From assembly GCF_000316685.1 (NCBI RefSeq), contig NC_019680.1:2923407-2987406 (forward strand): a stretch of DNA of 64,000 nucleotides, given 5' to 3'. Source of the stretch: Synechococcus sp. PCC 6312. Lineage in GTDB: Bacteria; Cyanobacteriota; Cyanobacteriia; Thermosynechococcales; Thermosynechococcaceae. This document shows, piece by piece, positions 5,088-13,549 of the stretch (within the stretch, counting starts at the first letter, position 1; each line of letters starts with the position of its first letter). The translations under genes and the position numbers were made by a program. The notes under the pieces were generated by a model. The model made no database searches and was not told the DNA's origin. It worked only from the letters and a program-made list of their open reading frames with translations.

Positions 5088-6137
5088 CTATGAGAGCCGA
5101 GTCACATTTTTAAAGGCCATGACAATTAGGGAATCTTGGGCTTCTAAATGCTGAAAGGAACTATGTCGGGGATTAAGTAAGATTTCCCCATTACCCCGCT
5201 TAACGCCTAACAGCAAGACTGGGTTTTCAGGATGTTTGCGGCTGTATTGATTAATCCATTGACTGAGTTCTTCAAAGGTTTTGCCGATCAGTTGGGATGG
5301 ATAGCGATCCGGATCAATAAAATAAAACTCGTTTGTGTCCTCGGAATAGGTTAATAACTGTTGATAAACCACAGACATATTCTTAAATAAGGCACTTTGG
5401 GCAATAATTCCCGAACTGTATTCCCGAGCCGAGATAATTTCATCAACCCCTGCTTCTTTGAGATGTCGCTGTCGATCTAAATTGACTAACTCGGCAACTA
5501 CATGGATATGTTGCTCCAGGCCTGGGGCTTCTTCTAAATGTTTAATCGCCAGGGCAATCAAGGCATTTTTTGCATCGGGGCTTTCACTGTCTTCATCCGC
5601 TAAGAGAATCACCGACTTGGCCTGGGTAGCCCCATATTTAGCTAAGGTGGCGTGATGAGTCGGGTCGGCCTGGATTAGGTAAATATCTGAGCGAGTTTGT
5701 AGATCTTCGGGGAGTTTCACATCTGCCGTGGAAATAATCACAATCTCCCGCTGATGTTGTTTATTAGCTTCAATCAGTTGCTGCAGAATGGCCACCGCCT
5801 TGAGATTCCAATTACAGATAATAATATGATCCTGAAATTGCTTCATTATTGTTTTCCTCTGCAACGAGCGCATCACAAAAAACGATGAAACCCGACCAAT
5901 CACTGCCCCAAAAACAAACGTCCCAAAGATAAATAAGAGCAACTGCAAAACTTGCCCAGTTAGGGTCTTCGGTCGGTCTGGATATTCTCCTAGAAGCGTG
6001 ATAATGACATTTTCTAGGAGTTCCCAGGCCTGGTCTTGTGAAGTTGCCCCCTCTGTCCACAGCAATAATCCCACCAGGCCAACCAGGCCCAAGCCCACGA
6101 TTGCGACTAACAGAAATTGCCAGCGAGGACGAAACAT
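5088..6137 (-). CDS. Potassium-channel-like protein with RCK (TrkA-N) domain
   Basis: A 349-residue membrane protein. Two hydrophobic segments (about residues 9-28 and 62-92) flank a short pore-loop-like stretch containing LLGEYPDRPKTL. The cytoplasmic part begins HIIICNWNLKAVAIL, a TrkA-N/RCK nucleotide-binding Rossmann domain like those that gate MthK-type channels, with IQADPTHHATLAKYGA and LADEDSESPDAKNA. A second RCK half follows to the C-terminus. The usual potassium filter GYGD is replaced by GEYPD, so ion selectivity is uncertain. It may be a single gene or share a transcript with mtnP, whose stop lies 33 bp upstream of this start. Confidence 0.75.
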   Translation of the reverse strand: MFRPRWQFLLVAIVGLGLVGLVGLLLWTEGATSQDQAWELLENVIITLLGEYPDRPKTLTGQVLQLLLFIFGTFVFGAVIGRVSSFFVMRSLQRKTIMKQFQDHIIICNWNLKAVAILQQLIEANKQHQREIVIISTADVKLPEDLQTRSDIYLIQADPTHHATLAKYGATQAKSVILLADEDSESPDAKNALIALAIKHLEEAPGLEQHIHVVAELVNLDRQRHLKEAGVDEIISAREYSSGIIAQSALFKNMSVVYQQLLTYSEDTNEFYFIDPDRYPSQLIGKTFEELSQWINQYSRKHPENPVLLLGVKRGNGEILLNPRHSSFQHLEAQDSLIVMAFKNVTRLS

Positions 6138-11980: not shown

Positions 11981-12181
11981 ATGAAATTAGATCGAATCAC
12001 CAGTAATCCCAACCGTATGAATGGCCAGGCCTGTATCCGTAATATGCGTTTAACCGTGCGTAGAGTTTTGGAACTATTAGCCCTTTATCCAAATCGACAA
12101 GAGCTTTATCAGGAATTTCCCGAACTAGAATATGAAGATATTCACCAGGCCTTAGTCTATGTATTGAGAGGTAAAAATTGA
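11981..12181 (+). CDS. DUF433 family protein (antitoxin-like)
   Basis: A 66-residue DUF433 protein, a small winged-helix family often annotated as an antitoxin. Hallmarks are RITSNPNRMNGQACIRNMRL, then VRRVLELLALYP and the acidic C-terminal helix ELEYEDIHQALVY. It starts at ATG 11981. The next small gene begins 5 bp after its stop, as in a toxin-antitoxin pair, but the downstream protein is not a recognised toxin. A degenerate copy of this gene lies at 13250-13404. Confidence 0.75.
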   Translation: MKLDRITSNPNRMNGQACIRNMRLTVRRVLELLALYPNRQELYQEFPELEYEDIHQALVYVLRGKN

Positions 12182-12186
12182 TACAA

Positions 12187-12447
12187 ATGACAACTATCAC
12201 CTCATCCCCGGGTCTCGACCCAGCCAATAATGAATGGGCTTTTGCTGAGGTTTGGATGGATGCCATGCTGACACCGCCCTACTTATTGCTGTTGTTAAGT
12301 TCCCCATCAGGGTCATATCACATTTATGATCCGGCAGAACATTATAAATTAGTTTTTAGTTGTGCCAGCTATGAAGAAGCCCAGGCCTGGCTATTGGAAG
12401 ATGAATATGAACCTGTTGAAGGCAAAGTTTTAGTATCTGATTTGTAA
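12187..12447 (+). CDS. Hypothetical protein paired with DUF433 gene
   Basis: An 86-residue acidic protein without a recognised domain. It has a hydrophobic centre (PPYLLLLLSSPSG) and a region that reads like a short cytoplasmic fold (YHIYDPAEHYKLVFSCASYEEAQAWL). ATG 12187 is preferred; the frame also opens at TTG 12178, overlapping the DUF433 stop. Its position directly after DUF433 makes it the candidate partner of that pair. Degenerate pieces of both genes occur again at 13161-13500, showing that the two were once duplicated together. Function unknown. Confidence 0.55.
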   Translation: MTTITSSPGLDPANNEWAFAEVWMDAMLTPPYLLLLLSSPSGSYHIYDPAEHYKLVFSCASYEEAQAWLLEDEYEPVEGKVLVSDL

Positions 12448-12468: not shown

Positions 12469-12810
12469 ATGGTTATGTTCACAACTAAAAGTCAGAGAAT
12501 ACAAACTTTAGTTGATCTCAATCAAATTCCCGGATTATGCCAGCGTTGGAAAATCAAAGAACTTGCAATTTTCGGCTCTGCTTTAAGAGATGACTTTAAT
12601 CCAGATCAGAGTGATGTTGATCTCCTTATTTCTTTCACTGAAGATGCTCATTGGACTCTGTTTGATTGGGTTGATATGCAAGATGATTTTGAGCAAATCT
12701 TTCACCGTAAAGTTGATCTAGTGAGTCGTAGAGGTATTGAAGACAGTCAAAACGTAAATCGTCGCGAGTCCATCCTCAACTCATCTCAAGTCATCTATGT
12801 TGCCCCGTGA
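12469..12810 (+). CDS. mntA: MntA-type minimal nucleotidyltransferase antitoxin
   Basis: A 113-residue nucleotidyltransferase of the polymerase-beta superfamily. The active-site motif is FGSALRDDF followed by QSDVDLL, a G-S ... D-x-D arrangement with 11 residues between GS and DVD, one more than the usual ten. In the characterised Shewanella MntA-HepT system this enzyme adds AMP to a HepT tyrosine and so neutralises it. ATG 12469 and ATG 12475 are both possible starts; AAGGA at 12461-12465 favours the second by spacing. The 3' end overlaps hepT by 14 bp. Confidence 0.85.
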   Translation: MVMFTTKSQRIQTLVDLNQIPGLCQRWKIKELAIFGSALRDDFNPDQSDVDLLISFTEDAHWTLFDWVDMQDDFEQIFHRKVDLVSRRGIEDSQNVNRRESILNSSQVIYVAP

Positions 12811-13147
12811 ACCTGATTACCTAGAAGATATGTTAGAAGCTGCAAAGTTAGCCCAATACTTTGTTAACGGTATCGACTGGGAAACATTTGCCCAAGACTT
12901 AATGCGTCAAGCTGCGGTTATGCGCCAATTTACCATCATCGGAGAAGCAGCCCGCCGGATTTCCCCTGAAACTCAAGGCCTATTAACCAACATTCCATGG
13001 CGAAAAATTATTGGAATGCGAAATCGTCTAACCCATGAATATGATGACTTGGATATTCAAGTGGTTTGGGATACTGTTCAGATTGCGTTACCAGGCCTGG
13101 TTAATACCCTAGAAACTATTCTTGCTGAGGTTAACGGTGAGTTTTAA
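12797..13147 (+). CDS. hepT: HepT-type HEPN toxin (DUF86)
   Basis: A 116-residue all-helical HEPN/DUF86 protein, the RNase-type toxin of MntA-HepT modules. The motif R-x4-H-x-Y is intact in MRNRLTHEYDD: the R and H are the predicted catalytic pair and the Y is the site modified by MntA in the studied system. The N-terminus EPDYLEDMLEAAKLAQYFV and the segment FTIIGEAARRISPE are typical. It overlaps mntA by 14 bp, so the pair is co-translated. Both partners look intact, so the module is probably active. Confidence 0.87.
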   Translation: MLPREPDYLEDMLEAAKLAQYFVNGIDWETFAQDLMRQAAVMRQFTIIGEAARRISPETQGLLTNIPWRKIIGMRNRLTHEYDDLDIQVVWDTVQIALPGLVNTLETILAEVNGEF

Positions 13148-13160
13148 AACCTGTGTAAAA

Positions 13161-13500
13161 TTCCCCATAAGGCACTTACCAGATTTATAATCCAACAGAG
13201 CATTACAAATCAACTCTTAGTTGTGCCAGCTATGTAGAAGCCCAGGCCTGTATTTGTAATATGCGTTTAACAGTCCGGCGGATTTTAGAACCGTTAGCCC
13301 TTTATCCAGGCCGGAATGAACTCTATCAGGAATTTCCCGAACTAGAAGCTGAAGATATTTACCAGGCCCTAACCTATGCCTCGACCTATTTTATGAAGAG
13401 GTAAAAAATTGATGCAAAAGACCGCTCGCTATCACGTCATCCCCAGAACTCGACCCAGCCAATAGTGATTAGAGCTTTGCAGAAGTCTGGATTAATTCAA
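13161..13500 (+). pseudogene. Scrambled duplicate of the DUF433 gene pair
   Basis: This stretch has no long frame but repeats 11981-12447 in a rearranged order. Bases 13161-13240 match the 3' half of the hypothetical partner gene (as at 12299-12381, up to GCCAGCTATG and GAAGC). At 13241-13250 the sequence is CCCAGGCCTG, and from there to about 13404 it matches the DUF433 gene from 12024 on. Bases 13405-13491 then match the start of the hypothetical gene (as at 12170-12260), with in-frame stops. The join therefore falls exactly on a CAGGCCTG motif present at the corresponding place in both genes. Confidence 0.75.
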
Positions 13501-13549
13501 TGGGCCCATCAACACAGGCGGTAAGATCAAGGTTGCACCCGCTGATCCC

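Follow-up and report, generated by a model that had tools for sequence, protein, structure and literature searches.

A permuted, decayed copy of a DUF433-hypothetical gene pair joined at a HIP-like palindrome in Synechococcus sp. PCC 6312

An iterated palindrome in the chromosome

HIP1 and the alternative HIPs (Elhai 2015, PMC4390886) are highly iterated, lineage-specific palindromes of cyanobacteria, and copies of HIP1 are cited as excision or recombination sites (PMC4390886). The chromosome of Synechococcus sp. PCC 6312, of which a stretch of 64,000 nucleotides (the window) was analysed, likewise carries such a palindrome, CCAGGCCTGG, present in 872 copies in the genome and in at most 27 copies in each of 57 relatives searched. 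Within the window, CCAGGCCTGG occurs 32 times on both strands, whereas a first-order model predicts 0.2, and 44 matches are obtained with up to one mismatch (e.g., at 5516, 12381 and 13091). It thus shares with the palindromes of the HIP type both the over-representation and the specificity for one cyanobacterial lineage. Compared with HIP1, CCAGGCCTGG differs in sequence and in that its half, CCAGGCC, is strongly over-represented as well (186 copies on both strands of the window vs. 12.9 expected). Moreover, HIP1 itself (GCGATCGC) is nearly absent, with 45 copies in the genome, and CCAGGCCTGG is not among the alternative HIPs in Table 2 of PMC4390886. By these counts, CCAGGCCTGG behaves as if it had taken the place of HIP1 in this lineage, in line with the alternatives that Elhai discusses (PMC4390886). 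In this capacity, the motif itself is of more interest than the rearrangement scar described below.

Four C5-methylase genes were found in the genome, and the product of one of them is closest, among solved structures, to M.HaeIII, which recognizes GGCC. This M.HaeIII-like C5-methylase (G000:C1:108783-109667; L115 1483-2490) is a candidate cognate enzyme for the core of the palindrome. Its gene (108.8-109.7 kb) lies directly upstream of an ABC-transporter-like gene.

The permuted copy and its join

The two copies and the genes between them lie on the forward strand of the window. An intact DUF433 gene (11981-12181, 66 aa; PF04255, E = 1.5e-18) is followed by an intact small hypothetical gene (12178-12447, 86-89 aa), which holds the motif at 12381-12390. 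Next comes a gene pair encoding an MNT nucleotidyltransferase and a HepT-like HEPN protein (12469-13147; PF01909, E = 9.8e-14, and PF01934, E = 1.3e-23), homologues of which are found at other loci. The next feature is the broken second version of the first pair (about 13150-13507), downstream of which lies a methylenetetrahydrofolate reductase (metF-like) gene. Conservation among HEPN relatives extends to about 13126, so that there is hardly any gap from the end of the HEPN gene to the copy's left edge. We considered whether the HEPN gene might share its 3' end with gene 2 (hypothetical; GCTGAGGTT) and dismissed this, as a related HEPN protein is conserved to that point.

We then compared the broken segment with the intact pair. 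The region from about 13150 to 13507 is a diverged copy of 11981-12447, with 75-81% nucleotide identity, in permuted order: the 3' part of the hypothetical gene (from 12293), DUF433 from the motif onward, and the 5' part of the hypothetical gene (to 12267). The first piece, 13154-13250, matches 12293-12389 ungapped at 81% and contains in-frame stops. The DUF433 piece, from the motif to the 3' end of the gene (13242-13391; PF04255 positions 17-56, E = 2.2e-9), matches 12025-12161 over 13242-13378, with 78% identity over the reported 160-nt block. The last piece (13392-13502, corresponding to about 12162-12267) aligns as 13392-13422 with 12162-12191 and as 13429-13502 with 12194-12267 (77%), and contains a TAG stop and a 4-nt insertion. 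On both sides of the join, similarity is unbroken except for small indels of 13, 4 and 1 nt. A preliminary description of this DNA had stated that the 3' part of the hypothetical gene is joined to the middle of the DUF433 gene; the alignment of 11981-12447 with 13161-13500 that it proposed bears this out, with the breakpoint on the motif and continuous similarity apart from those indels. The third piece had escaped it, as had the MNT-HEPN pair between the two copies and the relationship between the two hypothetical-gene fragments. One of these fragments stops at 12267 and the other begins at 12293; they have no overlap and all but complete one another, which makes the segment look like the 356-bp interval between the two motif copies in circularly permuted form. 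Together the fragments cover nearly all of this interval; the fit is suggestive only, since a divergence of 20% leaves the outer edges uncertain by some 10-25 nt, and by our own estimate the chance that independent truncations would produce such complementary fragments is about 10%. An assembly artefact as the source of the permuted copy is excluded in practice, the copy being 20% diverged.

At the join itself, CCAGGCCTG (13242-13250) is identical to 12025-12033 in the DUF433 gene and to 12381-12389 in the hypothetical gene, with exactly nine bases in common. Base 13241 (C) matches the hypothetical gene only and base 13251 (T) matches DUF433 only; hence, the leading extra C of CCCAGGCCTG is common to the copy and the hypothetical gene only. 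The motif had been correctly recognized at the join, previously given as 13241-13250, and the exact shared stretch is one base shorter. Likewise, the site in the hypothetical gene (12381-12390) holds with 12381-12389 as its shared part, and the one in DUF433, given as 12024-12032, is to be shifted by one base to 12025-12033.

The arrangement has the marks of a microhomology junction: the bases at the join are common to both parents, each flank belongs to one parent only, and the repeat used is among the longest available. By arithmetic from the list of shared words, such a product arises at about 10 of the 201 x 270 places where the two genes could be joined, a chance of about 2e-4, and the position of the motif at the join is consequently taken as non-accidental. 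A homology-guided join at CCAGGCCTG in the rearranged copy is, in our reading of the alignments, well supported, and this one copy of CCAGGCCTG very probably served as the short homology. To that extent, the earlier proposal that the palindrome acts as short recombination homology holds at this join, with its nine shared bases, and is not supported as a statement of a general property. A second 9-base direct word, GAATATGAA, is common to both genes, and no direct word that DUF433 and the hypothetical gene have in common is longer than these two. In addition, adjacent segments of 200 and 270 bp elsewhere in the window have a direct word of at least 9 bases in common 32% of the time. Given that GAATATGAA was also on offer, and given this background, the motif need not have any special property. 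Of the four joins at the locus, three (13127-13153, about 13379-13391 and 13503-13508) lie off the motif.

It could also be asked whether the motif was there when the join formed. The DUF433 motif at 12025-12033 codes for part of NGQAC, and the paralogues of the same genome mostly have GKPC at this place. This departure of GQAC from GKPC, together with the motif being a lineage-specific gain, indicates that motifs were created inside these genes, and would fit a join made on shorter homology and completed to the full motif later, by palindrome-spreading base substitution on a near-match. We regard this as quite unlikely: all three copies have the same nine bases, the flanks each assign cleanly to one parent, identity reaches 90-92.5% within 20-25 nt on each side of the join, and one event is enough. 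The identity within 20 nt on each side (92.5%, vs. 80% overall) has a permutation p of 0.018, which becomes 0.11 at 15 nt, and is too weak to claim gene conversion beside the join. DUF433 profile matches that start late (L034-L036) were considered as motif fusions elsewhere, and proved to be divergent family members.

The palindrome at duplication ends

To evaluate rearrangement endpoints more widely, 864 kb of the same chromosome (23%) were sampled in stretches, yielding 105 duplicated segment pairs, with one long tandem array left out, and 324 distinct endpoints. Only four of these lie within 10 bases of CAGGCCTG, three of them belonging to the present case, where 1.8-3.1 were expected, a comparison of low power at 864 kb. 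Apart from the present case, there is thus one endpoint on the motif against two to three expected in this low-power sample, and no motif excess at duplication ends. Moreover, the 7-mer half-motif is found at 12-17 of the 324 endpoints in the 864 kb, vs. 10-21 expected, likewise without excess, and permuted joins elsewhere in the sample do not fall on the motif. Two tandem arrays were observed in the chromosome, a long one that extends over about 5.6 kb in repeats of near 72 nt (G000:C1:2809537-2815132, L149) and one of 381-nt units that are 97-99% identical (G000:C1:2789448-2790964, L148).

These counts bear on the possibility that rearrangements are directed to the palindrome because it works as an active recombination site or hotspot, either as the target of a nuclease or as the substrate of a recombinase. 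Its huge over-representation (872 copies vs. at most 27 in the 57 relatives) would agree with this, as would what PMC4390886 cites for HIP1, namely site-specific recombination of a plasmid in PCC 7002 and HIP1-promoted excision. However, with the 8-mer below expectation at endpoints outside the present case, the 7-mer at expectation, the sampled permuted joins off the motif and only one of the four local joins on it, we consider such an activity very unlikely. The general recombination role that had been proposed for the palindrome is therefore not upheld, because a non-motif repeat of equal length (GAATATGAA) was on offer, the other local joins are off the motif, and the endpoints, within the limits of this low-power comparison, give no excess. 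Altogether, the sampled duplication ends give no sign of the palindrome driving rearrangement. As the genome contains one CCAGGCC or GGCCTGG per about 0.4 kb, a motif-borne join is to be expected now and then; taken alone, the copy is one old, ordinary short-homology scar, and its main value is one of caution.

Origin of the pair and routes to the permuted copy

The small hypothetical gene is widespread in cyanobacteria, and at several loci that were read it often lies downstream of a DUF6972 gene and overlaps its end; PF22319 was found in the upstream gene of one relative with E = 5.6e-50. At 41 database loci with the hypothetical gene, DUF433 is not its upstream neighbour. In both copies described here, the stretch from DUF433 to the hypothetical gene still shows the tail of a DUF6972 gene (12162-12240 and 13392-13460). 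In the intact pair, this 3'-end remnant, recognized by alignment with relatives, is out of frame with DUF433 and overlaps the start of the hypothetical gene. Because the tail is present in both copies, DUF433 took over the upstream place in this lineage, at the expense of most of the DUF6972 gene, while the copies had not yet separated, and this earlier DUF433/DUF6972 join (about 13379-13391) is off the motif. Elsewhere in the chromosome, we observed an intact DUF6972-hypothetical pair at 1128126-1128621 (L102, L117), where DUF6972 is the end of an ORF of about 380-400 aa, and a second DUF6972 copy, degraded and interrupted by two stop codons (L118, G000:C1:1299435-1299740).

Substitutions indicate that the duplication is old, as the copies diverged under purifying selection: dS is 0.5-0.9, and dN/dS is 0.19 for DUF433, 0.33 for the 3' part and 0.20 for the 5' part of the hypothetical gene. 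Nonsynonymous changes are below those of a neutral simulation for DUF433 (0/1000) and for the 5' part (P = 0.006), and borderline for the 3' part (P = 0.059). The second pair thus appears to have diverged while mostly constrained and to have decayed later, as seen in its in-frame stops and its 4-nt and 1-nt insertions. A 77-codon frame, identified by frame translation, is open and in frame across the join; having lost the DUF433 N-terminus and with no ATG upstream of the join, it is regarded as a probable relic.

The account that we favour, and hold to be fairly probable, is that the decayed second DUF433-hypothetical copy was permuted through a short-homology join between motif copies in an ancestral second pair. 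There, the motif copy lying downstream, in the hypothetical gene, would have been joined to the upstream one, in DUF433, by replication slippage, unequal sister exchange or excision of a 356-bp circle. The resulting tandem-duplication or circle junction would have left one unit in place, or reinserted, between the HEPN gene and the metF-like gene, where it would then have decayed. The motif would take part as one of the two longest direct repeats on offer, rather than as a dedicated recombination site. A tandem duplication or an excised circle between the two motif copies makes the observed join in one step. Against this origin, the divergence of about 20% blurs the outer edges, and two independent truncations could mimic the permutation (roughly 10%); moreover, no genome with an intermediate arrangement was found in the relative and database sets searched.

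The route originally put forward assumes two further tandem copies of the pair, a deletion from the motif of the first hypothetical gene to that of the next DUF433 gene, and later loss of the outer ends. Tandem copying followed by such a deletion yields exactly the observed join, and the dN/dS and dS values, which show copies long diverged as working genes, imply that at least one intact extra copy was once present. However, it needs three pair copies in all, whereas a single duplication or circle does the same with fewer, and independent outer losses must by luck leave complementary, non-overlapping hypothetical fragments. No relative with extra pair copies was found in the sets searched: an intact tandem or otherwise second pair was sought in 97 relatives, none of the same genus, and at the 41 loci holding the hypothetical gene, and none was present. 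Tandem copy plus deletion is therefore a possible but not a required route; it does not stand as the sole one, and we see it as a doubtful contender.

More specifically, a 356-bp circle could have been excised through the two motif copies, opened within the hypothetical gene and inserted anew on the downstream side of the HEPN gene. If true, this would be a case of natural excision and reintegration through a HIP-like palindrome, but we rate it unlikely. An ancestral or empty locus was also sought; since the sequence upstream of metF/MTHFR differs among the relatives checked, they provide no reference arrangement, and no plasmid match was found.

The short-homology join in an ancestral second pair, as favoured here, can be set beside described systems. 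The NTP_transf_2 and HepT-like domains of MNT-HEPN (HepT/MntA, type VII) toxin-antitoxin pairs are also those of the gene pair lying between the two copies. Nonetheless, it scores 32.1 and 41.8 against the MntA and HepT NCBIfam equivalogs, below the cut-off of 60, and it is no part of the join. A further likeness is with known short-homology (illegitimate) tandem duplications and deletions at direct repeats of about 8-12 bp. As in these, the junction has an exact overlap, here of 9 bp, the parents are otherwise unrelated at the join, and the repeats, 356 bp apart, are in direct orientation; what differs is that the segment is old, decayed and located downstream of another gene pair.
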